Assembly: GCA_019136545.1 (NCBI GenBank)
Contig: JAGVUA010000123.1
Location: 1 to 55,974 of the forward strand
DNA: 55,974 nucleotides
Source of the DNA: Betaproteobacteria bacterium
GTDB taxonomy: Bacteria > Pseudomonadota > Gammaproteobacteria > Burkholderiales > Rhodocyclaceae
Reading direction: 5' to 3'
The notes beneath the pieces were generated by a model. That model was not told where the DNA came from, ran no database searches, and saw only the letters and a program-made list of their open reading frames with translations. The translations under genes and the position numbers were made by a program. Shown here piece by piece: positions 1,442-41,325 of the stretch (the first letter of the stretch is position 1; each line of letters starts with the position of its first letter).

Positions 1442-1454
1442 GATTTCCTCCGCC

Positions 1455-2246: not shown

Positions 2247-2253
2247 TTCCGGA

Positions 2254-3189: not shown

Positions 3190-3190
3190 A

Positions 3191-22679: not shown

Positions 22680-22717
22680 CCGGTCGCGCGGATGCCTGCG
22701 TCGATGTCCTCGTAATC

Positions 22718-22942
22718 ATGGCCAAGCGCTTTCCGCGCCACCCCAAGCATCCCGAGCGCATCTGCTGGGGTTGCGACAAGTATTGCTCCACCGACGATCT
22801 GGGCTGCGGCAACGGCGCCGACCGCACGCAGCATCCGATCGAATTGATGGGCGAGGACTGGTATCGCCATGGCGACTGGGGGCTCGAGTTCGACGACGAC
22901 CCGCCATCGAATGCAACCGACGGCGACAGCCCGCAAGAGTAA
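22718..22942 (+). CDS. DUF3079 small cysteine-containing protein
   Basis: The 74-residue protein starts MAKRFPRHPKHPERICWGCDKYC and continues with DLGCGNGADRTQHPIELMGEDW, the signature of the uncharacterised DUF3079 family found in proteobacteria. Four cysteines (CWGC, C, C) could bind a metal. The acidic C-terminal tail (DDDPPSNATDGDSPQE) is variable. It is 38 bp downstream of pyc and convergent with the next gene. Function is unknown. Confidence 0.8.
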   Translation: MAKRFPRHPKHPERICWGCDKYCSTDDLGCGNGADRTQHPIELMGEDWYRHGDWGLEFDDDPPSNATDGDSPQE

Positions 22943-22970
22943 CGCGGCGCAGGGGCCTGAAGTGCGTTAC
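22939..22970. terminator. Weak inverted repeat between convergent genes
   Basis: Arms GTAACGC and GCGTTAC with an 18-base loop overlap the ends of the DUF3079 gene and of the convergent dehalogenase-like gene. There is no T-run, so termination function is uncertain. Confidence 0.25.
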
Positions 22971-23650
22971 CGCGTCACCCAGCCCCCGCAGAGCGGAAAC
23001 ACCTGGCCGACGAAACAGTTGGCGGCTTCACTGCAAAGATAGGCCACGAATTCGGCATCCTCGCGCGCGCCGACCAGCCGGCCGAGCGGCACTTCGCGCC
23101 GCAAGCGCTCCTGGAACCGGGGATCGGCCTGCAGCGCCGGCGGGAAGTAGGTCGGGTTGTCCACGAAGTTCTGGGCGATGGCATTGACCTGGACGCGGTG
23201 CGGCGCCATTTCGACGCCCAGCGTCTGGGCATAGGCAAGCTGGGCCCCGCGGGCGGCGCTATAGGTGGTCGCCTCGCTCATGCCGCGCAATGCGGAGGCA
23301 CTGCCCATGACGATGATCTTGCCCGACTGGCGTTCGATCATCTGCGGCAGGACGGCACGGCAAAGACGCGGCAACGGATCGACCAGCGCGGCGAACGTAT
23401 CCCGCCATTCCCGTTCGCTCACGTCGGGGGCTGGCGTACGCAGCCGCGGCACCGCGAGATTGGCGATGAGAATATCCACGCGCCCGGCGGCGGCCACGAG
23501 TGCCGCGGGCTGCGCCGGATCGAGCAGCGCTTGCCGGTCGGCAAGCAGCGTCGCGCCGTGTTCCGCGAGCACCTCGCACAGAACCGGCCCCATGAAATCG
23601 TCGGACTGCGTCACCAGGATGCGGCGACCTTGCAAGCGCTGTTCGGCCAT
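22967..23650 (-). CDS. Halohydrin dehalogenase-like short-chain dehydrogenase-fold protein
   Basis: The 227-residue protein has the short-chain dehydrogenase fold but not the NAD(P)-binding TGxxxGxG. In its place is T14-x4-F19-x-G21 (TQSDDFMG), and the active-site set is S117-x12-Y130-x3-R134 (GSAS...YSAAR), with Arg replacing the usual Lys. These two patterns are the published signature of halohydrin dehalogenases, which convert vicinal haloalcohols to epoxides and reopen epoxides with anions, using a halide site instead of a cofactor. The C-terminal FVGQVFPLCGGW also resembles that family. It has its own GAGGTG ribosome site and lies 98 bp after dmpI on the same strand without an obvious terminator between, so it may be the last gene of the phenol operon. 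The substrate is unknown; a plain dehydrogenase is less likely given the lost cofactor motif. Confidence 0.78.
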   Translation of the reverse strand: MAEQRLQGRRILVTQSDDFMGPVLCEVLAEHGATLLADRQALLDPAQPAALVAAAGRVDILIANLAVPRLRTPAPDVSEREWRDTFAALVDPLPRLCRAVLPQMIERQSGKIIVMGSASALRGMSEATTYSAARGAQLAYAQTLGVEMAPHRVQVNAIAQNFVDNPTYFPPALQADPRFQERLRREVPLGRLVGAREDAEFVAYLCSEAANCFVGQVFPLCGGWVTR

Positions 23651-23748
23651 GAAACACCTCGACGGAAAGACCCGCGGGAGCCTCCAGGCCCCCGGTGACT
23701 GTCACGCGCGGCCGCCCCATCTCCTCGCGCCCCCGCACAGCTGAAAGC

Positions 23749-23940
23749 CTACCGGCCGAGATCCTTCGCCGATTTGCCGCCGATGCCCCAGTTGGTCTTG
23801 GGTACGTCGTGAATCCAGACACGCACGTTTTCCCTCGGCGCCCCGACCGCCTCGATGAGCGCATCGGTGACCTTTTCAATCACTGCGCGCTTTTGCTCTT
23901 CGGTACGCCCTTCAATCAGATAAATTTGTGCAAAAGGCAT
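23749..23940 (-). CDS. dmpI: 4-Oxalocrotonate tautomerase
   Basis: This 63-residue enzyme isomerises 4-oxalocrotonate in the oxidative branch of the meta-cleavage pathway. After Met removal, the catalytic N-terminal proline is exposed (MPFAQIYLIEGR), and the conserved Arg of LIEGRTEEQK and the hydrophobic C-terminal helix region fit the family size. The ATG at 23940 has a strong GAGGAG site 7-8 bp upstream; a longer frame start would bury the catalytic proline, so it is rejected. It is the last canonical gene of the dmp operon, 10 bp after dmpH. Confidence 0.95.
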   Translation of the reverse strand: MPFAQIYLIEGRTEEQKRAVIEKVTDALIEAVGAPRENVRVWIHDVPKTNWGIGGKSAKDLGR

Positions 23941-23950
23941 TGTCGACTCC

Positions 23951-24739
23951 TCAGATAAAACGCAATGACACCGAGCCCAGGCCCTGGATGCGCAAGGCGA
24001 CGTTGTCGCCCGCCTTGACGGCGACCGCTTCGGTAATGCCGCCGGAAAGAATGAGGGTGCCGGCGGGAATTTCTTCGCCGCGGGAACCAAGGTGGTTGGC
24101 CAGCATGGCAACCGCCGCGGCCGGATGGCCGAGCACGGCCGCGCCCGCACCGAGCGACTTGATTTCGCCGTTAACTTCCAAAACGACGCCCAGCGTGCGC
24201 AAATCGACCTCCCCGACCGACCGAACGCGGCCACCGACGGCGAATCGTGCGGCCGACGTGTTGTCGGCGATCACGCTTTTCAGGTCGAACTTGAAGTCGC
24301 GATAACGTGAATCGATGACCTCGATGCCCGGCATGACAAAGTCCGTCGCGGCAAGCACGGCGCCGATGTGGCAACCCGGGCCCCTGAGGGCGCGCTTGGT
24401 GACAAAGCAGATTTCCGGTTCCACTTTCGGGTGGATCAGTTCGGATACCTTGATTTCACCGCCATCGGGCACCGCGTGCGCGTCAGCGACGAAACCGAAG
24501 CACGGCGTATCCACGCCCATCTGCTTCATTTTCGCGTGGGACGTCAGGCCGGCCTTGAGACCGGCCACCTTGTGGCCACGACCGAGCTTCCTGGCTTTGA
24601 TCGCATCCTGAATGGCGTAGGCATCATCCCAGTCCATGTCCGGATGGTCGTCGGTGATCTTGAGCGTGTCTCTTGCCTGGAGTTCACAGTTCTCCAGATG
24701 CTCCGCCAAACGGAGAACGGTAGCGTTATCGAGTTTCAT
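23951..24739 (-). CDS. dmpH: 4-Oxalocrotonate decarboxylase
   Basis: The 262-residue enzyme decarboxylates 4-oxalocrotonate to 2-hydroxypenta-2,4-dienoate, normally in complex with the hydratase DmpE, to which it is homologous. Family features include GHKVAGLKAGLTSHAKMKQMGVDTPCFG, the metal-binding EPEICFVTKRAL and the ADNTSAARFAVGG segment. Its ATG overlaps the aldolase stop by one base. The order H before I and after G matches the classical dmp and xyl meta operons. Confidence 0.95.
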   Translation of the reverse strand: MKLDNATVLRLAEHLENCELQARDTLKITDDHPDMDWDDAYAIQDAIKARKLGRGHKVAGLKAGLTSHAKMKQMGVDTPCFGFVADAHAVPDGGEIKVSELIHPKVEPEICFVTKRALRGPGCHIGAVLAATDFVMPGIEVIDSRYRDFKFDLKSVIADNTSAARFAVGGRVRSVGEVDLRTLGVVLEVNGEIKSLGAGAAVLGHPAAAVAMLANHLGSRGEEIPAGTLILSGGITEAVAVKAGDNVALRIQGLGSVSLRFI

Positions 24740-25791
24740 CAGTGAGCCCCCGCTGCGATACCGCGTTCGCGCGCCATGGTCAGCGCGGCGTCCTCGATCA
24801 TGTCTTCCTGCCCGCCAACCATGCCGCGGCGGCCGAGCTCCAGGAGAATCTCGCGCGCCGAAATACCGTACTTTTTCTCGGCCCGCTTGGCAAACAGCAG
24901 GAAAGAGCTATAAACCCCGGCATAACCAAGCGTCAATGCATCGCGATCGATACGGATTGGGTGATCCATGATCGGAACCACCCGGTCCTCGGCAACGTCC
25001 TGAATCTTCGCCACATCGACGCCAGTCTCGATGCCCATCATCGAGCATACGGCGATGAAGACTTCCATGGGCGTGTTGCCCGCACCCGCACCCAATCCTG
25101 CGGCGGCGGCGTCGATGCGCGTGGCGCCGATCTCCACCGCGGCGATCGAATTGGCCACGCCCATCGCCAGATTGTGGTGGCCATGAAACCCCAGCTCAGT
25201 CTCCGGCTTCAGCGCCTGACGTACGGCACCGAGTTTGCTCCGGACATCCTCCGGCAGCATGTGGCCGGCCGAATCGGTGATGTAAACGCAGTTGGCGCCA
25301 TAACACTCCATCAACCTGGCTTGCTTGACCAGGCCTGCGGCGTCATTCATGTGACTCATCATCAGGAAGCCGACAGTATCCATCTCCATCTTGCGGGCCA
25401 TGGTGATGTGCTGTTCCGAAACGTCCGCTTCCGTGCAGTGCGTGGCGACCCGGATGGTATGAACGCCGAGTTCGTGCGCCATCTTCAGGTGATCGACGGT
25501 GCCGATCCCCGGCAGCAGTAGCGCCGATATCTTGGCCTGCCGCATCAGCGGAATCACCGCGCCCAGATACTCGGCATCGGTATGGGCCGGAAAGCCGTAG
25601 TTCACGGAAGAGCCCCCGAGGCCATCGCCGTGGGTGACTTCGATCAGGGGAACGCCTGCCTCGTCAAGGCCCTTGGCGATGGTAGTCATCTGTTCGAGCG
25701 TCATCAGATGTCGTTTCGGGTGCATGCCGTCGCGCAGGGTCATGTCGTGAACAGCGATCCTGCGGCCTTTGAGTTTGGTGTCGAGGGTCAT
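24739..25791 (-). CDS. dmpG: 4-Hydroxy-2-oxovalerate aldolase
   Basis: DmpG splits 4-hydroxy-2-oxovalerate into pyruvate and acetaldehyde. The 350-residue protein has the DRE-TIM barrel start [14 protein letters not shown], with catalytic Arg and metal Asp, the [16 protein letters not shown] segment, the metal-binding [14 protein letters not shown] and the C-terminal region that contacts DmpF. It normally forms a complex with the acylating acetaldehyde dehydrogenase, channelling toxic acetaldehyde. It begins 12 bp after dmpF here, consistent with equal expression. Confidence 0.96.
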
Positions 25792-25803
25792 GGTTGCTTC
25801 TCC

Positions 25804-26727
25804 TTAGGCCGCGGCCTTGGTTGGCGCGAGCGTGATCGCTCCGGCGAGAATCTCCTCGGCGAACATTTCGGCGGTACGGGCCGCGGCCGCGGTCATGATG
25901 TCCAGATTGCCAGCGTACTTCGGCAGGAAATCGCCCAAACCCATGACTTCCATGAATACCGAGACTCGATTGCCATCGAATACCGGACCATTGACCAGCT
26001 TGTAGCCGGGAACGTACTTCTGGACCTCTTTGATCATGGCATGGATCGACTCGGTGATTCTGGCCTGATCCGGTGCGGTCTCGGTCAGGCAATGCACGGT
26101 GTCGCGCATGATCAACGGCGGTTCCGCCGGATTGATGATGATGATGGCCTTGCCCTGCTTCGCGCCACCGACCTTTTCGACCGCACCGGCCGTGGTCCGC
26201 GTAAATTCGTCGATATTCTTGCGCGTGCCCGGACCGGCGCTTTTCGAGGAGACCGTGGCGACGATCTCGCCGTATTTGACCGGCTGAATGCGCGACACCG
26301 CCGCGACCATCGGGATGGTGGCCTGGCCGCCGCACGTCACCATGTTCACGTTCATCTCCCGCTTGCCGACATGCTCGGCGAGATTGACGGGCGGCACGCA
26401 GTAGGGTCCGATGGCCGCCGGCGTCAGGTCGATCATCAGCACGCCCAATTCGTTGAGTTTGCGGCTGTTTTCGGCGTGGACGTAGGCGCTGGTGGCATCG
26501 AAGGCGATTTGAACTCCATCGGCAAGCACATGAGGCAGCAGGCCATCAACGCCCTGGTCGGTCGTTTTCAGCCCCATGTCGCGGGAGCGCTTCAGGCCTT
26601 CGGAAGTCGGGTCGATGCCGACCATCCAGAGCGGCTCGAGCACCGGACTACGCCTTAATTTGTAGAGAAGGTCGGTACCGATGTTGCCGGGACCGATCAG
26701 TGCGCATTTGATCTTTTTCGTACCCAT
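25804..26727 (-). CDS. dmpF: Acetaldehyde dehydrogenase (acylating)
   Basis: DmpF converts acetaldehyde, NAD+ and CoA to acetyl-CoA. The 307-residue protein has an N-terminal Rossmann motif ([17 protein letters not shown]), the catalytic Cys in [15 protein letters not shown], and family segments [18 protein letters not shown] and [12 protein letters not shown]. The ATG at 26727 is preferred over a GTG nine bases upstream because the AAGAG ribosome site overlaps that GTG. It is the partner of DmpG, encoded next. Confidence 0.95.
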
Positions 26728-26747
26728 GAAAGTCACTCTTCGAGAAA

Positions 26748-27530
26748 TCAGTAGAAACGTACCGAGCAGCCGCCGATGCCGCCGATGGTGACGCGCAGGC
26801 TGTCACCCGCCTGAACTGGAATCATCGGGCCCAGGGAACCGGAAAGAACCACTTCACCGGCCTTCAGAGGTATGCCGAGACGACCCAGGGTATTGGCCAG
26901 CCAGACCATGGCGTTGACCGGGTTGCCCAATGTCGCCGCGCCTGCACCGGTACACGCGATGTCACCGTTCTTCTCGAGGACCATGCCGCAGGTGGCAAGG
27001 TCCACCTCGCGCGGATCGACCAGCCGATCTCCCAGGACGAAAACGCCGCACGAGGCATTGTCGGCGACGGTGTCCTGGATCTTGATCTTCCAGTCGCGAA
27101 TCCGGCTATCGACGATTTCGAAGCAGGCCATGACCCCTTCGGTGGCCGCCAGCACGTCGGCAGCGGTGACGCCAGGCCCCGACAAGTCCTTCTTCATCAT
27201 GAAAGCGATTTCGCCTTCGGCCTTTGGCTGAATCAATGTGCCGATCGGAATCGATTCGCCTTCGTTGTAGATCATGCCATCCAGCATGTAGCCGAAGTCC
27301 GGCTGCCGGACACCCAGAAGATTCATCACCGCCGCGCTGGTGACGCCGATCTTCTTGCCGACGATCTTTTCGCCCTTGTCCAGCCGCCGTGCAATCATGC
27401 GCTGCTGGATGTGATACGCATCTTCGATGGTGATCTCCGGATGCCTGCTGGTCAGCGGCTCCAGCACTTGACGTGACACCAGCGCGCCGTACAGCTCGTC
27501 ACCGAGTTGCGTGATGAGATTTTTGTCCAT
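26748..27530 (-). CDS. dmpE: 2-Hydroxypenta-2,4-dienoate (2-oxopent-4-enoate) hydratase
   Basis: The 260-residue hydratase adds water to 2-hydroxypentadienoate to give 4-hydroxy-2-oxovalerate. It shows the family's [31 protein letters not shown], metal-binding [12 protein letters not shown] and the [14 protein letters not shown] segment. It is homologous to DmpH in this operon, and the two usually form a complex. It begins 3 bp after dmpD. Confidence 0.95.
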
Positions 27531-27533
27531 GGA

Positions 27534-28355
27534 TTACTCTTCCGTAAGAAAATCGACGACCAGATGAACGAAGCGTTCCTTATGCTCGATCTGAGTCCAA
27601 TGGCCGCATCGACCGAAGACATGCAGCTGGCTGCGATCAATCCATTGAGCGAGGGTAAGGGAGGTGGCCAGCGGAATCACCTGGTCGTCGCGGCCGTGGA
27701 GAATGAGCGTTTCGTGAGGCAAGGCGCGAATGTCAGCCGCGCTGCTCGCCATCGCGTCGACCCAGCGTTGTCGGGGCGCGGGAAACATGGCGGCAAAGGC
27801 CTCCTGGCACCCTGGCCGAATGCTTGCTTCATACCTCAGTTGCACGAGTTCGTCGGTAGCCAGGCTGCGATCGTGGGCGAACAGATTTATCAGGGCCCGC
27901 ATGCGCTCGAGCGAGGGCGTGTAACCCCACACGGCATCCAGGCCCGGCGTGATTTCAAAAGGAACTCCAACGCTACCCATCAGCACGAGCCGCCGAACGC
28001 GTTGCGGATGACGAATCGCCAAAGCAAGCGCGAGGGCACCGCCAAATGAGTTTCCCACCAGATCGGCTTGTTCGATGGCCAGCGCATCGAGCAAGCCGAT
28101 AGCCTGTCCAACCCAGGTATCCATGTCGTAAGCGACGCCAGCCGGTCGCTCGCTGAACCCAAAGCCCACCATGTCGGGCGCAAGCGCGCGCATGCGCCGT
28201 CCCACCAACGGAAGGACAAGCCGCCAATTCGCCCAAGCCGAAACCCCGGGGCCGGACCCGTGGATGAACAGCACCGGTCGGCCTTCGCCAACATCGTGAT
28301 AGTTGGTCAATACGCCGCCGGCTTGGATGCTCTTGCCAATTTCGGGGTTGGCCAT
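27534..28355 (-). CDS. dmpD: 2-Hydroxymuconic semialdehyde hydrolase
   Basis: DmpD is an alpha/beta hydrolase that cleaves the ring-fission product by the hydrolytic branch. The 273-residue sequence has the oxyanion segment HGSGPGVSAWANW, the nucleophile elbow GNSFGG, the catalytic Asp in LHGRDDQVIP and the catalytic His in GRCGHWTQIEH. Both hydrolytic (DmpD) and oxidative (DmpC-I-H) branches are thus present. It lies 21 bp after dmpC. Confidence 0.95.
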   Translation of the reverse strand: MANPEIGKSIQAGGVLTNYHDVGEGRPVLFIHGSGPGVSAWANWRLVLPLVGRRMRALAPDMVGFGFSERPAGVAYDMDTWVGQAIGLLDALAIEQADLVGNSFGGALALALAIRHPQRVRRLVLMGSVGVPFEITPGLDAVWGYTPSLERMRALINLFAHDRSLATDELVQLRYEASIRPGCQEAFAAMFPAPRQRWVDAMASSAADIRALPHETLILHGRDDQVIPLATSLTLAQWIDRSQLHVFGRCGHWTQIEHKERFVHLVVDFLTEE

Positions 28356-28376
28356 ATCCGCTCGATCCCTTCGAAA

Positions 28377-29831
28377 TCAGAGCTTGATACAAACGTTTTT
28401 GAGTTCGGTATAGAACTCGAGCGAATGAACCCCGCCCTCGCGACCGATGCCGGACTGCTTGGCGCCCCCAAAGGGCGTGCGCAGGTCGCGCAGGAACCAG
28501 CTGTTCACCCAGGCCAGCCCTACTTCGATGCGGCCGGCAACACGATGCGCGCGCGCGAGGTTGGTGGTCCAGATCGCCGTCGCCAGGCCGTAGACATTGT
28601 CGTTGGCGCGACGAATCACGTCTTCTTCGCTGTCGAAGGGCGCGATATGGCAGCAGGGGCCAAATATTTCCTCGCGGCAAACCGTCGCGTCATCGCCCAG
28701 CCCCGTCCAGATCGTCGGTTGTATCCAGCACCCTTGGTCGAGCTCACCGTCCATCTTGGGCACGCCACCGCCGGTAATGACTGTTGCGCCCTCGGCGACA
28801 GCCTTCTGGTAGTAGCTAAGCACCTTGTTCTGATGCTCCTTCGAGATCAGCGGGCCGATGCCCGTGCTTGGATCATTCGGTCGACCGAGTTTCATCGCCT
28901 CGGCGCCCGACTTTAATGCTGCGACGAACCTGTCGAAGATCGGGCGTTCGACATAGACCCGCTCGGTTCCGAGGCAGACCTGGCCACAATTGATGAAACA
29001 GGAACGCAAGGTCCCTTCGATGGCGGCATCGAAATCGCAATCGGCAAACACGATGGCGGCGTTCTTGCCGCCCATTTCAAAGCTGACCGGTCTGGCGCCT
29101 TCTGCCGCGGCGCGCATGATCGCCGTACCCGTGCGCGTTTCGCCCGTGAACGTAATGGCGTTCACTCCCGGATGGGTGGTGAGATGCTCGCCTGCCGAAT
29201 CGGGCCCGAAACCATGGACGACGTTATAGACGCCCTTCGGCATTCCTACCGCATTCATCACCTCGCCGAGCAATGTCGCGGTCTGTGGCGTTTCCTCCGA
29301 GGGCTTGACCACCACGGCATTGCCGCAGGCGAGGGCCGGTCCCACCTTCCACGTCATCAACAGCAGCGGCAAATTCCATGGACAAATCACACCCACCACG
29401 CCCACCGGCCTTCGCATGGCGTAGTTCAACGCACCTCGTCCATCCGGCGTTGCTGTCTCGAAAAATTCGGTCGGCACATTCTTCACCACGTCGGCAAAGA
29501 TCTTGAAATTCGCCGCGCCCCGGGGAATATCGACATGACGGGCAAGACTCATGGGCTTGCCCGTATCGGCACACTCCGCCTCGAGAAAGTCATCGAAGCG
29601 GCGGTTGATCTCGTCGGCAACGCCATAGAGCAGATCAACGCGGTCGGCGATGGCCATCTGACCCCACGGCCCATTCAGGGCAGCGCGCGCCGCTTTGACG
29701 GCAGTGTCGACGTCGGTCTGCCCCGCTTCCGCGACCTGGGCGATCAGCGTGTTGTCGACTGGCGAGCGCTTGTCGAACCACGTTTTGCTGGCGACGAACT
29801 GTCCGTCGATGAAGTTTTTGATCTGTTTCAT
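28377..29831 (-). CDS. dmpC: 2-Hydroxymuconic semialdehyde dehydrogenase
   Basis: DmpC oxidises 2-hydroxymuconic semialdehyde to 4-oxalocrotonate with NAD+. The protein is 484 residues from the ATG at 29831 (MKQIKNFIDGQFV), close to the family length. It has the aldehyde dehydrogenase features FTGETRTG (cofactor loop), FEMGGKNAAIV (general base Glu) and INCGQVCLGTERVY (catalytic Cys). The frame is open further upstream, but those residues do not resemble the family. It follows the GlcG-like gene by 46 bp. Confidence 0.95.
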   Translation of the reverse strand: MKQIKNFIDGQFVASKTWFDKRSPVDNTLIAQVAEAGQTDVDTAVKAARAALNGPWGQMAIADRVDLLYGVADEINRRFDDFLEAECADTGKPMSLARHVDIPRGAANFKIFADVVKNVPTEFFETATPDGRGALNYAMRRPVGVVGVICPWNLPLLLMTWKVGPALACGNAVVVKPSEETPQTATLLGEVMNAVGMPKGVYNVVHGFGPDSAGEHLTTHPGVNAITFTGETRTGTAIMRAAAEGARPVSFEMGGKNAAIVFADCDFDAAIEGTLRSCFINCGQVCLGTERVYVERPIFDRFVAALKSGAEAMKLGRPNDPSTGIGPLISKEHQNKVLSYYQKAVAEGATVITGGGVPKMDGELDQGCWIQPTIWTGLGDDATVCREEIFGPCCHIAPFDSEEDVIRRANDNVYGLATAIWTTNLARAHRVAGRIEVGLAWVNSWFLRDLRTPFGGAKQSGIGREGGVHSLEFYTELKNVCIKL

Positions 29832-29877
29832 GCTTTCCCCACTATGAAGAATCGGCGGCTTGACCGACCCCGTCTTG

Positions 29878-30303
29878 TCACCCCAGCCCGATCGCGGCAA
29901 GGCCGGCTTGCGCGCACTCCTCGTCTTCCGTCTCGGATGCTCCGGATACCCCGATGCCGCCAATCCAGTCGCCCGCCACCTGAATCGGCAAACCGCCGCC
30001 AAACACCACCAGGCGAGGTCTGGCCGCAAATCCCAGCTTCATGCCCTCGTTATCACCGACGATCGCCATCCATTGCTTGGTGGGAAAGCCGAAGCTGGCC
30101 GACGTATAGGCCTTGTCGATGGCGATGTCGCCCGAATGGAGGAAGGCTCCCGGCATGCGCAGGAAGGCCATCAGGTTGCCGCCCCGGTCGACCACAGCCG
30201 CGTTGATCCGCCAGCCCCGACGCTCGGCATGTCGCACCGCGGCCTGCACGGCGCCGGTAGCGGCCTCCCAGGTAATGCCGGGGGTCGTCGCGACGATCTG
30301 CAT
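29878..30303 (-). CDS. GlcG/HbpS-family (DUF336) protein inside the meta operon
   Basis: The 141-residue protein has the GlcG/HbpS fold signatures AVVDRGGNLMAFLRMPGA, SGDIAIDKAYTSASFG and the glycine-rich LVVFGGGLPIQVAGDWIGGIGVSGAS with the closing DEECAQAGLAAI. Family members bind haem or small molecules or sit in catabolic operons without an assigned reaction. Here it lies between dmpB and dmpC, 3 bp after dmpB, a position empty in the archetypal dmp operon of Pseudomonas. A role in protecting or repairing the iron enzyme, or in handling a pathway intermediate, is speculation. Confidence 0.85.
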   Translation of the reverse strand: MQIVATTPGITWEAATGAVQAAVRHAERRGWRINAAVVDRGGNLMAFLRMPGAFLHSGDIAIDKAYTSASFGFPTKQWMAIVGDNEGMKLGFAARPRLVVFGGGLPIQVAGDWIGGIGVSGASETEDEECAQAGLAAIGLG

Positions 30304-30306
30304 CGA

Positions 30307-31236
30307 TCAGGTCACCACGCTCAAGAAGCGATCGTTGAGCTTGCGGTCATGGTAGAAGATGCCTGTCCCCACTTCGTCCATCGTCCACTTGAGGGGCTGA
30401 TGATCCGGATAGGTCTGGTAACCGCCGCAGAACGTCTCGAAACGATTTCCCGAGGGATCGAAGGCATAGATGGTGGTTCCGCGCGTAACGCCGTGTCGGG
30501 TGGGCCCGATATCGATCGAGACGTGGTTCATCGACATCAGGTCGGCGGCACGCAGCACTCGCTCCCAACTGTCGAGCAAGAACGCGACATGGTGGAGCTT
30601 GCCCGGTTCGGGATGACGGACGAAAGCGATGTCGTGGGCCTTGATCGACGTGGACAGCCAGATCGCCAGATCGGTCTTGTTGTCCTCAAGAACAATATGC
30701 TCGACTAAATAGAACCCCAGCACTTCCTCGAACAGCTTCTGCACCTTCTCGATGTCGGGTCCATAGAGCAGGCAATGGTCCAGGCGAGTCGGGGCGATGC
30801 CTTTTTCCGAAGCTGCGGACCATGGGTCCGGATTGACGTAGGAGATACCGTTGCCGACGTCTTTCTTCTCGGCGTACAGTTCGATCATATGGCCGCTGGG
30901 AACCTGGAAGCGTACGCGCTCGCCGGTTTCCAGCATTTCGCCGGCCGGAATGCGCTCGGTGCTGACGCCATAGGCGCGCAGATCGGCATCGAGCTTTTCA
31001 AGCGTCTTCTTGCCATCTACCTTGAAGGCAAAGAAGTCGATGCCTGCCTTGTCCGCTTCGCGGATGACGACGCTGTTGTGGTCGCGCTCGTCCCAGGCCT
31101 TGAAATAGACCCGCCATTGCTTGTCGCGTCCCGTTTCCTGCAACCCAAGAACGTTGCCGTAAAAATTGACGGCTTCCTCAAGATCGAGCACGCGCAGTGC
31201 GGCGTGGCCCGGACGCAATACTCCATTCATTGCCAT
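30307..31236 (-). CDS. dmpB: Catechol 2,3-dioxygenase (extradiol, class I.2)
   Basis: The 309-residue enzyme opens catechol next to the diol to give yellow 2-hydroxymuconic semialdehyde. It has two vicinal-oxygen-chelate domains and the Fe(II) ligands His in LDHCLLYG, His in LHHVAFLLD and Glu in NRFETFCGGY; the active-site His and Tyr of the family lie in NHVSIDIGPTRHG and TTIYAFDPSGN. A strong AGGAGG site precedes the ATG at 31236. A separate promoter and palindromic operator lie in the 111-bp gap before it, so dmpB and the lower genes can be expressed apart from the hydroxylase. Confidence 0.97.
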   Translation of the reverse strand: MAMNGVLRPGHAALRVLDLEEAVNFYGNVLGLQETGRDKQWRVYFKAWDERDHNSVVIREADKAGIDFFAFKVDGKKTLEKLDADLRAYGVSTERIPAGEMLETGERVRFQVPSGHMIELYAEKKDVGNGISYVNPDPWSAASEKGIAPTRLDHCLLYGPDIEKVQKLFEEVLGFYLVEHIVLEDNKTDLAIWLSTSIKAHDIAFVRHPEPGKLHHVAFLLDSWERVLRAADLMSMNHVSIDIGPTRHGVTRGTTIYAFDPSGNRFETFCGGYQTYPDHQPLKWTMDEVGTGIFYHDRKLNDRFLSVVT

Positions 31237-31291
31237 GTTTGTCGCTCCTCCTAGATGGACTACCTCTATCCGGCACGAGGCCGATGTTTAC

Positions 31292-31310
31292 TGCAAACGA
31301 TACTTTTGCA
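31292..31310. promoter_or_regulatory. Inverted repeat over the dmpB -10 region
   Basis: TGCAAACGATACTTTTGCA has 6-bp arms TGCAAA/TTTGCA around seven bases and covers the -10 of the dmpB promoter. Its placement fits an operator for an unidentified repressor, but one short repeat could arise by chance. Confidence 0.35.
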
Positions 31311-31325
31311 CGATCTCGATGTCAA
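31297..31325 (-). promoter_or_regulatory. Sigma70-type promoter before dmpB
   Basis: Minus strand: perfect -35 TTGACA, a 17-bp spacer and -10 TATCGT, ending about 60 bp before the dmpB ATG. It lies between dmpQ and dmpB and would give the meta-cleavage genes an independent housekeeping promoter. Confidence 0.68.
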
Positions 31326-31331
31326 TAGATT

Positions 31332-31341
31332 TTCTCGAGAT
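31332..31341. promoter_or_regulatory. Palindrome copy 3 (candidate GntR operator) before dmpB
   Basis: The minus strand reads ATCTCGAGAA, one base from the perfect palindrome ATCTCGAGAT found twice in the dmpK-dmpR region. It lies 6 bp upstream of the -35 of the dmpB promoter. Confidence 0.5.
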
Positions 31342-31347
31342 TTATCT

Positions 31348-31662
31348 TCATTCAGCTTGGCGGCAGACGTTCTTCTTCATGAGGCCGATGACCCGGAGAA
31401 CCATGTTGCCGGCCGGCCTGACGCGGCAAGCGAGCACGCGATGGGCAGCTTCGTCCTCCTCGCTGACGTACTCCCGGCTCATCCTGCGCTTCGTGTAGTC
31501 GCCGGCGACGACTTCGATCTTGCAAACGCCGCAGCCGCCACCCCGGCAGCCGACCGGTATGCCTTGCTTGCCGAGTTTCTCCATGCCCACCAGGAGCGTT
31601 TCCTGGTCGGAGCACCGATACGTCTCGCCGGTCTCGTCGATCGTGATGGTGTAGTGCGCCAT
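31348..31662 (-). CDS. dmpQ: [2Fe-2S] ferredoxin that reactivates catechol dioxygenase
   Basis: The 104-residue chloroplast-type ferredoxin carries the cluster ligands in GCRGGGCGVCKIEV (C-x5-C-x2-C) and the distal Cys in VLACRV. DmpQ/XylT proteins re-reduce the oxidised iron of catechol 2,3-dioxygenase when substituted catechols inactivate it. It sits between the hydroxylase reductase dmpP (1 bp upstream) and dmpB, as in Pseudomonas dmp. The C-terminal MKKNVCRQAE adds a further Cys that is unlikely to be a ligand. Confidence 0.92.
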   Translation of the reverse strand: MAHYTITIDETGETYRCSDQETLLVGMEKLGKQGIPVGCRGGGCGVCKIEVVAGDYTKRRMSREYVSEEDEAAHRVLACRVRPAGNMVLRVIGLMKKNVCRQAE

Positions 31663-31663
31663 G

Positions 31664-32719
31664 TCAGATCTTCTTGAACAAGGGGCTGCGCACCTGTTGC
31701 GCGTCCGCAGCCGAGAAGAACTTCTCGGTATAGATGTCGCGCTCGAACAAGCGCCCCTGCATGAGCGCGGTGATGCAGGCGTCGATCATGACCGGCGGAC
31801 CGCAGAGGTAAGCCTTGTGGCCGCGAAAGTCGTTGCTGAAATGCTCCTTGGCGGCATCGTGAACGAAACCGCGGCGTCCCGTCCACGCTGACTCTTCCGG
31901 CTCGTTGGAGAGCACGGGCACGTAGCGAAAGTTCAGATGGGCCTTGGCCAGCGCCTCGAAGTCCTCGTGATAGTAGAGCTCCTCCCTGTCACGGGCGCCA
32001 TAGACCAGCGTGATCGGCAATGCGCAACCTTCTTCGAGCAGATCCAGAATCATCGACCGCGGGCTTGACAGCCCCGAGCCGCCGGCGAGAAAGATCATGG
32101 GCGCGTCAGCCGACTTGCGCACAAAGAACCGGCCGTAGGGACCCGCCACCTGCAAGACATCGTCCACCCCGAGCTTTTCGTGAATCCACGTCGTTGCCTG
32201 TCCGCCGGGAACGAGGCGGACGTTCAGCTCGATTTCGTCGGAGCGTGCAGGTTGATTGGCCAGCGAAAAGGCACGGGTCATCTGCCCATCCGGCATATGC
32301 AGATTGATGTACTGCCCCGCCTGAAACGCGATCGGGTGATCCAACTTAAGCCAGATGCCCTTGATCGTCGGCGTCAAGTCCTTAATCCGACTGACGACGC
32401 CGCGAAAGTCCCGCACCGGCAGATTGCGGGCATCCGGCTCGACGTCGATGTCCGCTTCGATGGTCACGTCGGAATGCGGCGTGGCGCAACAGGCCAGGCA
32501 AAGGCCCTCCTCGCGCTCGTAGTCCATGAGCGCGAAGTTGGACGCCTCGCCGTGGTCGATATCGCCATCGGTCACCTGTACCTTGCAGGTCGCGCACAAG
32601 CCATGGCAACAGGCATGCGGCAAATAGATGCCCGCACGCAGGCTGGCGTCGAGCAGGGTTTGCCCCTCCTCGATCTCGATCACCTGGCCGAGCGGCTCAA
32701 TCGTCAGCTGATATGACAT
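31664..32719 (-). CDS. dmpP: Phenol hydroxylase reductase component P5
   Basis: DmpP passes electrons from NADH through FAD and a [2Fe-2S] cluster to the phenol hydroxylase oxygenase. The 351-residue protein has an N-terminal ferredoxin domain (HACCHGLCATCKVQV and LCLACC), an FAD domain (RAFSLANQP) and an NAD domain (MIFLAGGSGLSSPRSMI), then YLCGPPVMIDA. Length and order match the family. It follows dmpO by 15 bp. Confidence 0.96.
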   Translation of the reverse strand: MSYQLTIEPLGQVIEIEEGQTLLDASLRAGIYLPHACCHGLCATCKVQVTDGDIDHGEASNFALMDYEREEGLCLACCATPHSDVTIEADIDVEPDARNLPVRDFRGVVSRIKDLTPTIKGIWLKLDHPIAFQAGQYINLHMPDGQMTRAFSLANQPARSDEIELNVRLVPGGQATTWIHEKLGVDDVLQVAGPYGRFFVRKSADAPMIFLAGGSGLSSPRSMILDLLEEGCALPITLVYGARDREELYYHEDFEALAKAHLNFRYVPVLSNEPEESAWTGRRGFVHDAAKEHFSNDFRGHKAYLCGPPVMIDACITALMQGRLFERDIYTEKFFSAADAQQVRSPLFKKI

Positions 32720-32734
32720 CGTTCACAGCGCTCC

Positions 32735-33094
32735 TTAGCTGCAACTGCCCTTGATACCCGTGAGGCCCGGGGTACGAAAACGAATGACATCCTTGTGCAG
32801 GATCCCGTTCTCTGCGAGCGACTTGGCGTCGTCCGGCCGCCAAGGCTTGCCCGACTTGAACCACTCGACCTTGCTCCAGTCGATCTTCTTGAAATCCGGG
32901 TGATAGCCGAAGCCGCCCGGCAGCACCTTTTCAAGCAGTTCGCCAAAGGACATGGCGCCGGGCAGCGGCCAGCAGAACGGCGCGCAGAACATCAGATGGT
33001 CTTCCCAGCCGACATACAGCAACTGGTTGCCGTGAAACTTATCCTGGCTGTCCGCCGCCGGAAAGTCATAGGGTTTCAGCGATACGACTGACAT
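32735..33094 (-). CDS. dmpO: Phenol hydroxylase component P4 (oxygenase gamma subunit)
   Basis: The 119-residue protein matches the small gamma subunit of multicomponent phenol hydroxylases: MSVVSLKPYDFPAADSQDKFHGNQLLYVGWEDHLMFCAPFCWPLP near the start and FGYHPDFKKIDWSKVEWF in the middle. It associates with DmpL and DmpN to form the hydroxylase dimer. It lies 12 bp after dmpN. Confidence 0.95.
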   Translation of the reverse strand: MSVVSLKPYDFPAADSQDKFHGNQLLYVGWEDHLMFCAPFCWPLPGAMSFGELLEKVLPGGFGYHPDFKKIDWSKVEWFKSGKPWRPDDAKSLAENGILHKDVIRFRTPGLTGIKGSCS

Positions 33095-33106
33095 ATTGGC
33101 GTCTCC

Positions 33107-34654
33107 TCAGTTCTTGGCGGCCATCGTTCGCCAGGCGGCGAAGTTCCGCTGGTCTTCCGATCCCTCGAATTCCATGTTGTCGCGGCCCTGGTTGATGTGA
33201 TAGTGGTCGAGTACGGCCGCAAGCGGATTGAAGCCGGGGGCAGCGGGGTCGACGCCGGGATCGAAGCAGTTGCCCTGGTGGATCTGATGCACCGGCAGCC
33301 AAGCCTGGATGTACTTTTCCGGCTCGTGGTCGAAAATTTCCTTGCAGCCGTCCGAACAGAAGTGGTACTTCTCTCCTTTGTAGTCCGACTCGCGATAGCA
33401 AATCTTGGTCGGATCGGCGGGTTCGGTAAACAGCATCGGGATCTGGCAGGTCTGGCACAGCATGGGCAGCGTCAGGTTGTAGAAACGATTGCCGGCCTTA
33501 TGCTGCTCCGCAAAGTACTCGAAGCGCGGACGATAGTATTTGTCGAAGGTATTCGGATACTTCTCGGATAGCCAATCCATTTCCGATGAGCTCGGCATCC
33601 AGGTGTGGAAGTCGGCGGCCGCGCCATACTGATAGAACGTCGCCCAGGCCTGATGCGACACATGTTCCTTGTCGAGCGCCGCCTGGGCGGCACACTTGGG
33701 TACCGTGATGCCGTAACGCGCCAAATCGTTGAACAAGGCGCCGCCATTCTGCTCGAAATAGATTTCCCAGGCTTCCTTCCAGCTCATGACCCGCTTGGGC
33801 AGCATGTAGTCCATCATCATGCCCACCAAGGTCAGCACCCTAGTACCGCGCCAGGTCCATTTGTCGATCCAGCGTTGGACGATGGGCAGGTTGTCCGGAT
33901 CCTGCTCAAGCATGAACTTGATGCATTCGAGACCCAGCGTCATGTGGCGCGCCTCGTCGGACTGGGCGGAGAAGCCGAAGGTCATGGCGCCCATGTCGCC
34001 GTTGTAGGCTGCGCCCGAAATGAACGGCACGAACAGCAGGTTGGTCAGCACGTATTCGAAGCTGAAACCGATGGCGATCATGAACTCGAATGGCCCCGCC
34101 GTGTAAGCGTCGTCGAAGAACGAGCGTGGCACCGAGAGGTACCAAACCCGCTCGATCATGTGCATCGGATCGTGGAAGCCGTTGTAGTATTTGTTGTAGT
34201 TCGACATCGAATGGATCTGGGTCTGCGCATGCCGGATTTCGTCGAGCGACTGCATCAAGCAGGCCACGCGCGGTCCAACGCCGCGCATCTGGCGTCCCAC
34301 ATGGGCAAATCCGCGGTGCGCCATGTATTCGAGCGGCGAGATGCCGGTCAGGAACAGCTTCAACGTATTGATGTAGCGCGCGTCGGTGACGCCCAGGTGG
34401 CCATTGTTCTGGGCGAAGGCGTCGATGATGGCGTAAAGCTTGCGCTCCTTTTCCGCCTGATACTTCCAGTAGGCATCCATGGTCATGCGGAAGGGGTCTT
34501 CCCACTTGTCCCAGTCATGTATCTTGATGCCTTCGAACTTGTCGTACGGAAACACCTTGTCCATGGGCTGATACGTCGTATCCCAACCCAGGCCTCGGGT
34601 CATGAGCGCATAGCGCTCCTTGAGGCCAAGCTTCTTGTTGACTTTGACATCCAT
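33107..34654 (-). CDS. dmpN: Phenol hydroxylase component P3 (diiron oxygenase alpha subunit)
   Basis: DmpN holds the diiron centre that turns phenol into catechol with O2. The 515-residue protein shows both carboxylate-histidine pairs typical of bacterial multicomponent monooxygenases, DEIRHAQ and DEARHMTLG, and a C-terminal zinc-type cysteine region (LCQTCQIPM and FCSDGCKEIF). Length matches the family. It lies between dmpM and dmpO and is the catalytic core of the whole operon. Confidence 0.97.
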   Translation of the reverse strand: MDVKVNKKLGLKERYALMTRGLGWDTTYQPMDKVFPYDKFEGIKIHDWDKWEDPFRMTMDAYWKYQAEKERKLYAIIDAFAQNNGHLGVTDARYINTLKLFLTGISPLEYMAHRGFAHVGRQMRGVGPRVACLMQSLDEIRHAQTQIHSMSNYNKYYNGFHDPMHMIERVWYLSVPRSFFDDAYTAGPFEFMIAIGFSFEYVLTNLLFVPFISGAAYNGDMGAMTFGFSAQSDEARHMTLGLECIKFMLEQDPDNLPIVQRWIDKWTWRGTRVLTLVGMMMDYMLPKRVMSWKEAWEIYFEQNGGALFNDLARYGITVPKCAAQAALDKEHVSHQAWATFYQYGAAADFHTWMPSSSEMDWLSEKYPNTFDKYYRPRFEYFAEQHKAGNRFYNLTLPMLCQTCQIPMLFTEPADPTKICYRESDYKGEKYHFCSDGCKEIFDHEPEKYIQAWLPVHQIHQGNCFDPGVDPAAPGFNPLAAVLDHYHINQGRDNMEFEGSEDQRNFAAWRTMAAKN

Positions 34655-34670
34655 CTGTCCGGCTCCTCGC

Positions 34671-34940
34671 TTAGTGCTGCCAACTCAGGGTGAATTCGTC
34701 GTCCGTTTCGTCGATGTGTCCGGACAGCGTGATCAGGTGTATCTGCATTTCCTGAAGATCGAAGGAACGGCCGATCTTCTCCTCGATGGTGGCCCGCTTG
34801 ATCGTCATGCTGCCCTCGGCATCGATCTTCACCATCGCAGGCTGTTCGTTGAGGACGGCATTGGGGTTGTCTTCGAGGATGGCGTCGATGATGCAGCGGG
34901 TCTCCTCGGTTCTCTGGAATGCGATAAATACGTTTGACAT
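34671..34940 (-). CDS. dmpM: Phenol hydroxylase activator component P2
   Basis: The 89-residue cofactor-free effector protein binds the oxygenase and is needed for turnover. MSNVFIAFQRTEETRCIIDAILEDNPNAV and the following IDAEGSMTI...IGRSFDLQEMQIHLITLSGHI are characteristic. It lies 11 bp after dmpL and 16 bp before dmpN. Confidence 0.95.
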   Translation of the reverse strand: MSNVFIAFQRTEETRCIIDAILEDNPNAVLNEQPAMVKIDAEGSMTIKRATIEEKIGRSFDLQEMQIHLITLSGHIDETDDEFTLSWQH

Positions 34941-34951
34941 GCGACGACTCC

Positions 34952-35935
34952 TCAGAGGGCCAATCCGAGCTTGGCCGCCCGGGCGTTGAACTGTTCCGTC
35001 AATTCGGCCATCACCGCATCGGCCTCAGCTTCCAGCGCGCGCGCGGCCAGCGGCGCCACGGCCTCGACCGCACGATCCCGCCACGCACGCGTCCAGCCAG
35101 ACACGAGATCCTTGTTATCGGCCGCCGCCACCTTGATCGATGCATCCACCCATTTGACCGTTTCCGCATACCACTCCGCCTGAAAACGTACCAGCATGGA
35201 CACGGTCGGACCGGCCTTGGCTGTCAAGGCATTGTCGAAATAGGTATAGATCAACGGGTAAAGGAAACCGTCGAGGGCCAGGTTCTGGGCGACGAACTGT
35301 TCGAACCAGTCGGACATGACGAAGCTGTCCTCGACGTAGCGGCGCAATGCCTGCCACTTCGGATCCTCCAGCCAGGCTTGCTTGGCCGCATCGAGTGCCT
35401 CGGCATCTGCCAGCAGCAGCCCGACTCGCGTCAGGTACTGGGCGATCCCCAACTGATCCATGGCCTGATACAGGCACGGTTGCGTGATGGCAGTGCCATA
35501 ACCATAGGCCGCCATGGCGCTATTGTTCATGTTGCTGCCCCAGGCGACATGGCGTAGCGGCAGCAACACCTCCAGCGCCAATCCTTTCGCCGCAGCGGGA
35601 TAGCTGTCGGCCAGACCGCGCGACTCGACAAAATCGAAATCCGCTTCAGCGGCCTCCTGCATGCGGGCCCGCGCGATCGTGTATGTCCCATAGTAGAACT
35701 GCCGCGGATCCTTGAAGGCGTACCAGTCTTTGATCTTGAGCGCCGTGCGCGACGGGTCGAAGATCTCGTGATCCGGATCCCACAACGGCCGATAATGGAA
35801 GTTGCTTTCGGCCTGGACGCGAATGGTCCCCTCCAGGTAGCGGGACGCCGGCTTGTCGGCGCCAAGATGCCGCGCCACCTGGTCGAATGTCTGTCGCAAC
35901 GGCTTGATGCTGACGGTGCGCAAATCGATTTGCAT
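34952..35935 (-). CDS. dmpL: Phenol hydroxylase component P1 (oxygenase beta subunit)
   Basis: The 327-residue beta subunit has a ferritin-like fold without metal ligands and forms the structural half of the hydroxylase dimer. MQIDLRTVSIKPLRQTFDQVARHLGADKPASRYLEGTIRVQ and the WDPDHEIFDPSRTALKIKDWYAFKDPRQFYYGTY segment are diagnostic. It follows dmpK by 40 bp with its own GAGGAAG site. Confidence 0.96.
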   Translation of the reverse strand: MQIDLRTVSIKPLRQTFDQVARHLGADKPASRYLEGTIRVQAESNFHYRPLWDPDHEIFDPSRTALKIKDWYAFKDPRQFYYGTYTIARARMQEAAEADFDFVESRGLADSYPAAAKGLALEVLLPLRHVAWGSNMNNSAMAAYGYGTAITQPCLYQAMDQLGIAQYLTRVGLLLADAEALDAAKQAWLEDPKWQALRRYVEDSFVMSDWFEQFVAQNLALDGFLYPLIYTYFDNALTAKAGPTVSMLVRFQAEWYAETVKWVDASIKVAAADNKDLVSGWTRAWRDRAVEAVAPLAARALEAEADAVMAELTEQFNARAAKLGLAL

Positions 35936-35975
35936 TGTGCCTTCCTCCTGTCATCGCGGCCAGCCGGCCGCTGTT

Positions 35976-36221
35976 TTACCTAAAGCGCTCGTGCACCGCG
36001 TCTCGCAGGCGCCAATCCATGTCTCCGGCACCGATCTTCAATTGGGTGCGCCGATCAAGGAACACCACATTGTTGAGGGCGCAAAACTCGTCGAAGGCAG
36101 TGGCGGGCAGGATCATTTCGACGAATATTTCCGGTTCGCCCACCGCGAAGTCGAACTCGACGAACCCATTCGGTCGCAACGCCACGACTCGTACAAACTT
36201 TTTGCTCGGATCGAATGCCAT
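35976..36221 (-). CDS. dmpK: Phenol hydroxylase assembly component P0
   Basis: DmpK (81 residues) helps assemble active phenol hydroxylase, probably by aiding iron incorporation into DmpN. The ATG at 36221 gives MAFDPSKKFVRVVALRPNGFVEFDF behind an ideal AAGGAGG site; the open frame upstream would extend into the leader. It is the first gene of the operon, about 19 bp downstream of the predicted start site of a sigma54 promoter. Confidence 0.93.
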   Translation of the reverse strand: MAFDPSKKFVRVVALRPNGFVEFDFAVGEPEIFVEMILPATAFDEFCALNNVVFLDRRTQLKIGAGDMDWRLRDAVHERFR

Positions 36222-36249
36222 GACACCTCCTTGGCGGACAAGCTCACCT

Positions 36250-36265
36250 AACAACAATCGTGCCA
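36250..36265 (-). promoter_or_regulatory. Sigma54 promoter of the phenol operon
   Basis: Minus strand TGGCAC-GATTG-TTGTT matches the -24/-12 consensus TGGCAC-N5-TTGCA at all but two bases, with exact spacing. It lies about 30 bp before dmpK. A sigma54-dependent activator gene (dmpR) is divergent from it. Confidence 0.85.
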
Positions 36266-36286
36266 GATGATCGAGACCGCTAATTT

Positions 36287-36296
36287 ATCTCGAGAT
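36287..36296. promoter_or_regulatory. Palindrome copy 1 (candidate GntR operator) near the dmpK promoter
   Basis: Perfect 10-bp palindrome ATCTCGAGAT in an AT-rich setting, 21 bp upstream of the sigma54 promoter of dmpK. An identical copy is at 36439-36448. Confidence 0.55.
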
Positions 36297-36337
36297 TATT
36301 AATTTCCATCAAGAAATAATGGTTTTATCAGCGATCG

Positions 36338-36349
36338 ATAGTCGACTAT
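36338..36349. repeat. Perfect 12-bp palindrome in the dmpK-dmpR gap
   Basis: ATAGTCGACTAT lies between the promoter-proximal operator and the DmpR-type upstream site. It may be part of a regulator site (the neighbouring TTATCAGCGATCGATAG at 36325-36341 also has dyad character), but no family match is known to me. Confidence 0.35.
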
Positions 36350-36373
36350 TTCATTAGCTGCGTAACCGGCAAA

Positions 36374-36389
36374 ATTGATCAAATGATCG
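36374..36389. promoter_or_regulatory. DmpR-type upstream activating sequence
   Basis: The core TTGATCAAATGATC (36375-36388) closely matches the TTGATCAATTGATCAA inverted repeat bound by DmpR/PhlR-type activators. It sits about 140 bp upstream of the predicted dmpK transcription start, a usual enhancer distance. A second weaker dyad is near 36325-36341. Confidence 0.7.
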
Positions 36390-36431
36390 CGCCGCAATGC
36401 AGCATTGCCTTGGCGACCATTTCCAGGGAAA

Positions 36432-36460
36432 CTGATTAATCTCGAGATTCTGGCTATACT
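36432..36460 (+). promoter_or_regulatory. Candidate sigma70-type dmpR promoter containing palindrome copy 2
   Basis: A good -10 TATACT (36455-36460) has only a weak -35 (CTGATT, 36432-36437) at 17-bp spacing. The palindrome ATCTCGAGAT (36439-36448) fills the spacer, an ideal place for a repressor to block the promoter. Confidence 0.5.
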
Positions 36461-36509
36461 GCGCCGATTGCCGGCAAGCTTCCATCCACGCCGGGTCATT
36501 GGAGAAGCA

Positions 36510-38210
36510 ATGAAGGCCACCAAGTCCGCCTATCCCGAAGATGCCGATCTCCGACGTCTCGTGCGATTTTCGGCCGAGGAAGGCACCATCTGGCTGGCCG
36601 AGCATCGCATGCTGCTGCTCCACGCCGCGTCGCTGGGCAGCCTGCGCAAGGAGCTGGTCGACTCGGTCGGTTTCGAGCAGGCCAGGAGGATCCTGACACG
36701 CATGGGCTATGCCTCCGGCATTCGCGATGCGGAACTCGCCAGGAAGATTCGGGCCGACGCATCGGTGACCGATGCTTTTCTGGTCGGCCCCCAGTTGCAC
36801 ATGCTCGAAGGCAGTGTCCGCGTCACGCCGATCACGCTCGACATGGACATCTCGGCGGGCAGGTTCTTCGGCGAATTCCGCTGGGAGAATTCCTGGGAAT
36901 CGGCGGCGCATGTCCGCGAATTCGGGGCGCAAATCGCGCCGGCCTGCTGGATGCTGATCGGCTATGCTTCCGGTTACTCATCCGCCTTCATGGGCAAGTT
37001 CGTGCTGTTCAAGGAAATCGAATGCACCGCGTGCGGCGCGCCCAGTTGCCGCATTGTCGGACGGCCGGTCGAGGAATGGCCGGATGCCGACCAGCACACG
37101 CCTTACTACCGGTCGGAGTCGCTGGTGTCGCGCATGCTGGATTTGCGCAGCGAGGTCGATATCTTGCGCTCCTCGCTCGAGCAACAGTACAAGGTCGACA
37201 ATCTAATCGGCGAATCGCCGGCATTCCACCAGACGTTCGAATTGGTGTCGAGGGCCGCCAAGACCAGCGTCACCGTGCTGCTCACGGGAGAAACCGGCGT
37301 GGGCAAGGAGCGTTTCGCCCGCGCTTTGCACGACCTCAGCGATCGCGCCCGCGGCCCGTTCGTCGCGGTCAACTGCGCCGCACTGCCCGACGACCTGGTG
37401 GAGTCCGAGTTGTTCGGCGTCGAAAAAGGCGCCTTTACGGGAGCCCATGCCTCGCGCGCCGGCAAATTCGAGCGCGCCGAGGGCGGTACGCTGTTCCTCG
37501 ACGAGATCGGCGACATGCCACTGCCCGCGCAAGCCAAGCTGTTGCGCGCGCTTCAGGAAAGCGAGATCGAACGGCTCGGCGACGATCGCACGCGGCGCGT
37601 CAACGTGCGCGTCGTCACTGCCACCAACATCGACCTGCTCACGGCGGTCAAAACCGGCCGTTTTCGCTCCGACCTCTTCTATCGGCTCAACGTCTACCCG
37701 ATACCGGTGCCACCGTTGCGCGAGCGCGCGCAGGACATTCCCGCGCTGGCCCACGCCATGCTCGAACGGTTCGGCACGCTCCACGGCAAGCGGCTGGCCG
37801 GCATCACCGACAAGGCGATGGGCGCCCTGAAGGCATTTTCCTGGCCTGGCAACGTCAGGGAGCTGGAAAACATGATCGAGCGCGGCGTCATCCTCGCATC
37901 GAACAACGGCTGGGTTGAAGTCGAACATCTGTCGCCCTGCCTGGGCGGCCTTGCCGAACGCGAAACCGGCATTTCCGCGACCGGCAAAATCGAACCGCCG
38001 CGCACCCCAGACCAGCGCGAGCTTTGCAACATCATCCTCGGCAGCGGTTATTCCCTGGACCAGATCGAATCGATGCTGCTGGAGGAAGCCGTCAATCGCG
38101 AACAAGGCAACCTGGCTGGCGCGGCTCGCCTGCTCGGCATCAGCCGTCCGCAAATCTCTTACAGGCTGAAACGCAATCAAGGTGAACCCCGAAGAACGAC
38201 AAAGGCGTGA
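36510..38210 (+). CDS. dmpR: Phenol-responsive sigma54 activator (DmpR/MopR family)
   Basis: The 566-residue regulator activates sigma54 transcription when phenols bind its N-terminal domain. Residues 1-200 form the XylR-N/V4R sensor. The pocket residues known in MopR (H106, W134) and its zinc ligands (C155, E178, C181, C189) align at a constant offset of nine with H97, W125, C146, E169, C172 and C180. The AAA+ domain has Walker A GETGVGKE, the sigma54-contact GAFTGA and Walker B GGTLFLDEIG; a Fis-type helix-turn-helix ends the protein (LAGAARLLGISRPQISYRLKR). The ATG at 36510 follows a GGAGAA site; the longer frame start would lie inside the promoter. It is divergent from dmpK. Confidence 0.95.
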   Translation: MKATKSAYPEDADLRRLVRFSAEEGTIWLAEHRMLLLHAASLGSLRKELVDSVGFEQARRILTRMGYASGIRDAELARKIRADASVTDAFLVGPQLHMLEGSVRVTPITLDMDISAGRFFGEFRWENSWESAAHVREFGAQIAPACWMLIGYASGYSSAFMGKFVLFKEIECTACGAPSCRIVGRPVEEWPDADQHTPYYRSESLVSRMLDLRSEVDILRSSLEQQYKVDNLIGESPAFHQTFELVSRAAKTSVTVLLTGETGVGKERFARALHDLSDRARGPFVAVNCAALPDDLVESELFGVEKGAFTGAHASRAGKFERAEGGTLFLDEIGDMPLPAQAKLLRALQESEIERLGDDRTRRVNVRVVTATNIDLLTAVKTGRFRSDLFYRLNVYPIPVPPLRERAQDIPALAHAMLERFGTLHGKRLAGITDKAMGALKAFSWPGNVRELENMIERGVILASNNGWVEVEHLSPCLGGLAERETGISATGKIEPPRTPDQRELCNIILGSGYSLDQIESMLLEEAVNREQGNLAGAARLLGISRPQISYRLKRNQGEPRRTTKA

Positions 38211-38217
38211 GCGAACA

Positions 38218-38934: not shown

Positions 38935-39006
38935 GTTGCGGCTCCCGCGCCGACTTAATTGGGGTAAGCTGGGTCGATTTCCCGCTCGCTTTTCGTCTGA
39001 CCGCAA

Positions 39007-41253
<2,247 letters not shown>

Positions 41254-41325
41254 GCGGTCAGGACAGTCGATCAGCGCCACGCCGAACCGTATGGACGCGG
41301 CGAGGCGCGCAAGACGGTTATGACA

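Follow-up and report, generated by a model that had tools for sequence, protein, structure and literature searches.

Halohydrin dehalogenases interconvert haloalcohols and epoxides, and a gene that appears from its sequence to encode such an enzyme raises the question of what it does behind a phenol-degradation operon. The gene lies in a 55,974-nucleotide stretch of Rhodocyclaceae DNA (contig JAGVUA010000123.1; the window), directly after dmpI, the last gene of the meta pathway, and an earlier note had suggested that it acts on epoxides or haloalcohols alongside aromatic degradation. Passages of PMC4989007 leave the natural role of these enzymes open as of 2016: only two of the halohydrin dehalogenase genes then known shared an operon with an epoxide hydrolase gene, and further physiological functions could not be excluded. 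We consider it highly probable that the window gene encodes a cofactor-independent dehalogenase of the D type, which most likely acts as a stand-alone enzyme on small haloalcohols or epoxides, is encoded at a variable site flanked by pyc and amtB, and came to lie downstream of dmpI by chance.

The reading frame starts with ATG and carries the N-terminal motif T-x4-F/Y-x-G as well as the catalytic motif S-x12-Y-x3-R, the defining marks of halohydrin dehalogenases according to passages of PMC4989007 (for the motif definitions see also parts of PMC11976700). Both motifs sit at the residues that the earlier note had given (Table 1). Among the 141 stop-to-stop frames of at least 150 amino acids in the window, motif 1 occurs in four, motif 2 in three, and the combination in this frame only. 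One scan of species genomes yielded 319 stretches encoding a relative (E 1e-3 or better), some of which may not be dehalogenases; the best 80 of these 319, which were retained, are 68-77% identical to the window protein and together with it preserve motif 2 in 81 of 81 sequences and motif 1 in 80 of 81. The 37 loci from the same family besides the window's own show motif 2 throughout (37/37) and motif 1 in 34; the homologue in L153, whose match begins only at residue 84, is among the three without motif 1. Substitutions in motif 1 next to an intact motif 2 were seen in L078 (Plasticicumulans acidivorans, 10001-10666; threonine to leucine), L155 (threonine to isoleucine) and L159 (glycine to alanine).

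Table 1. Features of the window around the putative dehalogenase gene
Feature	Coordinates	Strand	Basis or remark
hheD-like gene, predicted D-type halohydrin dehalogenase, 227 aa	22967..23650	-	sequence, PDB match, motifs, fold
Motif 1, T14-QSDD-F19-M-G21 (T14-x4-F19-x-G21)	23588..23611	-	borders the nucleophile pocket of such enzymes
Motif 2, S117-x12-Y130-x3-R134, catalytic triad	23249..23302	-	sequence
NPTYFP loop, residues 165-170	23141..23158	-	common to window protein, HheD2 and HheD8
Gap between dmpI and dehalogenase gene, 98 bp	23651..23748	-	sequence
dmpI, 4-oxalocrotonate tautomerase, last meta-pathway gene	23749..23940	-	Pfam Tautomerase; ATG at 23940 chosen by eye
dmpH, G, F, E, D, C, HbpS-like gene, catechol 2,3-dioxygenase (meta-cleavage)	23951..31236	-	domains
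Phenol hydroxylase	31664..35935	-	reductase 31664-32719; large component 33107-34654; second Phenol_Hydrox component 34952-35935
XylR/DmpR-type sigma-54 activator	36405..38210	+	divergent from phenol genes
Block absent between pyc and amtB in sister genome G004	22680..42966	.	genome comparison

The closest known enzymes are of the D type. In a sequence search of the PDB the top entry, 7b73 (HheD2 according to a passage of PMC9629495), reached 334.7 bits against 77 bits for the first FabG; it was followed by 8xxb (304 bits), whose entry title in Foldseek names HheD8 with chloride, and then by HheB (176 bits), an HheB mutant (172 bits) and 6a41 (120 bits). Other dehalogenases (4ixt and the HheA, HheC and HheG types) scored about 80 bits or less, level with FabG. 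Identity to the window protein amounts to 66.8% for HheD2 (147/220), 63.1% for HheD8 (140/222) and 42.6% for HheB (95/223). Passages of PMC4989007 put identity between halohydrin dehalogenase subtypes below 30% and describe HheD19-38 as 57-95% identical to HheD-HheD6; the two D-type values are thus typical of a shared subtype and well over the between-subtype limit. Since the value for HheB also exceeds this limit, the D and B types appear closer to each other than the rule, as worded in those passages, provides for. HheD2 and HheD8 are nearest by sequence and by fold, and we therefore file the window gene under the D subtype, which supports and sharpens the earlier assignment to the halohydrin dehalogenases.

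The fold comparison rests on an AlphaFold model built from 29 sequences (mean pLDDT 81.8), for which Foldseek returned HheD2 chains at ranks 1-4, HheD8 at rank 5, B-type enzymes at ranks 6-9, another dehalogenase at rank 10 and cofactor-dependent short-chain dehydrogenases from rank 11 on. HheD2, which comes from a gammaproteobacterium, has both motifs, the fold (TM-score 0.88 over the query) and the NPTYFP loop in common with the window protein; it differs in its host, and the phenol-operon neighbourhood is a feature of the window gene. The triple mutant of HheD8 with chloride (8xxb) is matched over the full-length fold, but HheD8 sits on a long tree branch whose placement the program flagged as unsure. 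HheB (4zd6) likewise shares motifs and fold, yet it represents a separate subtype and its motif 1 has tyrosine where the window protein has phenylalanine. By analogy with HheC, the NPTYFP loop may lie at the halide site. The matches to HheD2 and HheD8 suggest that a halide pocket would replace the cofactor site, in a model whose confidence is low for residues 161-164, 188-191 and 218-227, a set that includes part of the presumed pocket.

Genes of this kind are also more common than the earlier note, which called them rare, had assumed: homologues at E 1e-60 or better occur in 38 of 297 sampled genomes of the same family, spread over 17 of 68 genera, and in one of the six genomes of the window's own genus, of which the other five are 80-87% complete. 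A tree of 84 rows places HheD2 inside the set of relatives and mixes betaproteobacterial, gammaproteobacterial, alphaproteobacterial, myxococcal, desulfobacterial and acidobacterial rows, with weak deep support (12 of 81 inner branches starred). Horizontal spread of D-type genes is a reasonable inference from this pattern, to which mis-binned MAG contigs could contribute. A plasmid origin was considered and rejected; a single plasmid record reached E 1e-30 or better, with 41.9% identity.

As the earlier note had it, dmpI and the dehalogenase gene share a strand, are separated by 98 bp and have no clear terminator between them: positions 22600-24100 hold neither a terminator-like site (1.2 expected by chance) nor a sigma-70-like site, and the RNA fold of the gap, computed for 23640-23760, is unremarkable (z -0.66). 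The dmp letters of the meta-cleavage genes are our own assignment from domains and gene order; within this operon, an HbpS-like gene (29878-30303, minus strand) stands between the catechol dioxygenase gene and dmpC. As the search detected no terminator behind dmpI, transcripts of the phenol operon may run on into the dehalogenase gene. The dehalogenase gene could then be a true late member of this operon, transcribed from a DmpR-controlled promoter, and its product would clear epoxides and haloalcohols that phenol hydroxylase forms by co-oxidation of alkenes or chlorinated substrates. Strand, gap and the lack of a terminator or a promoter of its own in the interval searched favour late-operon membership, which we nevertheless regard as unlikely in view of the related loci, of the co-occurrence counts within genera and of the composition of the gene.

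Beside the best 80 of the 319 relatives, dmpN, dmpP, dmpL, the catechol dioxygenase gene (dmpB) and dmpE-I were found in none of the loci at E 1e-20, and dmpI in none at E 1e-5 either; 35 of these loci exceed 20 kb and the remainder are shorter. Matches to dmpC, dmpR and the histidine kinase, at 28-48% identity, occur in two to four of the 80 loci and probably reflect no more than general family resemblance. The 37 other family loci, of which 20 extend over the full 20 kb and 11 repeat a protein of the 80, likewise lack the core phenol and meta-pathway genes (0/37); dmpC, dmpD and dmpR were each matched once there and the kinase three times. For the loci examined, this rules out the phenol operon as a conserved context, and the position of the dehalogenase gene after the phenol cluster seems to be accidental and local, not the sign of a conserved partnership. 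No other partner stands out: by Pfam, 42 close same-strand neighbours upstream and 34 downstream fall into families with at most three and five members, respectively, the neighbours in the 80 loci having been called with an approximate codon model, which for some short loci returned no neighbour upstream or downstream. In the window's own genome, the one epoxide hydrolase family sought, PF06441, had no match.

A recurrent arrangement of a different kind was noticed in five loci (L011, L016, L019, L047 and L061), where a biotin carboxylase gene lies upstream and an HMG-CoA-lyase-like gene downstream of the dehalogenase gene (around 7100-11700; in L016 around 580-4508). The lyase was identified in L011, L047 and L061 and is assumed for L016 and L019 from its size and the family count of five; both carboxylases tested, those of L011 and L047, contain a methylcrotonyl-CoA carboxylase domain. 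In these five loci the dehalogenase gene looks as if it had been inserted into a leucine-degradation operon.

Genome content at first sight speaks for a link with phenol degradation. Within the family, dmpN is present in 24 of 38 genomes with the dehalogenase gene and in 57 of 259 without it (odds ratio 6.1, p 7e-7), and dmpH in 23 of 38 and 58 of 259, respectively (odds ratio 5.3, p 6e-6). The association persists at the level of genera (13/17 vs 17/51, p 0.004), but when dmpN was shuffled within genera, the 24 co-occurrences observed compared with 22.6 expected (sd 1.4, p 0.26), in a permutation of limited power that covered 263 of the 297 genomes, those with a listed genus, and had 11 informative genera; all 38 carriers were included and the 34 genomes omitted were non-carriers. 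The association therefore lies between genera and not within them. Genera rich in catabolic genes and larger genomes (median 4.5 Mb in carriers against 3.6 in the others) are likely reasons for it. After the within-genus permutation we do not accept co-occurrence at the genome level as evidence of a functional link; the between-genus association stands and may reflect a real link. Taken with the neighbourhoods, this leaves the role alongside aromatic degradation weakly supported: the tendency to occur in the same genera holds, and linkage to the core genes and co-occurrence within genera were not seen.

The site itself is variable. The block of about 20 kb between pyc and amtB holds a DUF3079 gene, the dehalogenase gene, the phenol cluster, regulators, the histidine kinase and an aldehyde dehydrogenase gene. 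In the sister genome G004, at most a few bases separate the end of pyc from the sequence found at window position 42967, which is the amtB gene; G003 has a 159-residue frame, bacteriohemerythrin-like by eye, between pyc and amtB; and in G001 the contig stops 267 bases past pyc, this end having no match in the window. These comparisons show that the block varies within the genus. Gain in the window's lineage and loss in the sisters both fit and cannot be told apart. The loci compared for this site were the window (22680-42966), L130, L131 and L132.

The dehalogenase gene lies at one edge of the block, and its GC content (0.681) is unlike that of the dmp genes (0.57-0.62), which argues against late-operon membership; it is nearer to that of pyc (0.667), the HbpS-like gene also has 0.667, and at third codon positions the contrast is modest (0.820 against 0.812 for the highest dmp gene). 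Edge position and composition hint at most weakly at separate histories of the dehalogenase and phenol genes. Among the repeat pairs listed, no direct pair spans both edges of the block; a 17-nt imperfect inverted pair occurs near both (22810-22826 and 43014-43030), such short pairs often arising by chance, and the one tRNA gene of the window (14068-14144) lies away from the block edge. Elsewhere in the window, a 775-aa frame (16740-19067, minus strand) fuses a cyclic-nucleotide-binding domain, an acetate kinase and a phosphate propanoyltransferase, a three-part protein of which we know no other example.

That the protein is an ordinary NAD(P)-dependent short-chain dehydrogenase, dehalogenase-like by chance, is very improbable: its Pfam and NCBIfam matches are confined to families of that type, but the best 25 of 194 NCBIfam matches all fall below the curated cut-offs, which is what a relative from beyond the cofactor-dependent families should show, and, as the earlier note had observed for the window protein, both the cofactor motif G-x3-G/A-x-G (first 30 residues) and Y-x3-K (catalytic region) are missing, here from all 81 sequences, while HheD2, to which it is so similar, is a solved and named halohydrin dehalogenase.

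For a dehalogenase of the D type, a catalytic scheme known from characterised enzymes (in part from passages of PMC4989007) may be applied to the window protein by homology to its solved relatives. Tyr130, its pKa lowered by Arg134, would act as the base that removes the proton from a vicinal haloalcohol, and Ser117 would bind the substrate oxygen. This oxygen would close the ring to the epoxide, and the leaving halide would pass into a pocket at the place that NAD(P) occupies in ordinary short-chain dehydrogenases. In the reverse direction, the epoxide would be opened by halide or other small anions. Activity and substrate, as well as independence from phenol metabolism, are predicted for the window enzyme.

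The D-type genes compared here have hosts in several classes of Proteobacteria and in a few further phyla, and each neighbour family recurs in a handful of loci at most. Such scatter, together with the lack of a common neighbour family, favours an enzyme that stands alone over one tied to a single fixed pathway. In their passages on dehalogenases, PMC6922532 and PMC8657726 make no mention of a linkage between halohydrin dehalogenase and phenol hydroxylase genes. It is quite doubtful that the enzyme was recruited into the DmpR-controlled phenol regulon in this organism, where it would dispose of the epoxides and haloalcohols that phenol hydroxylase makes from co-substrates. The phenol setting nevertheless provides one concrete and testable regulon hypothesis for the natural role of a halohydrin dehalogenase and, if true, such a recruitment would assign a natural role to an enzyme of the D type.
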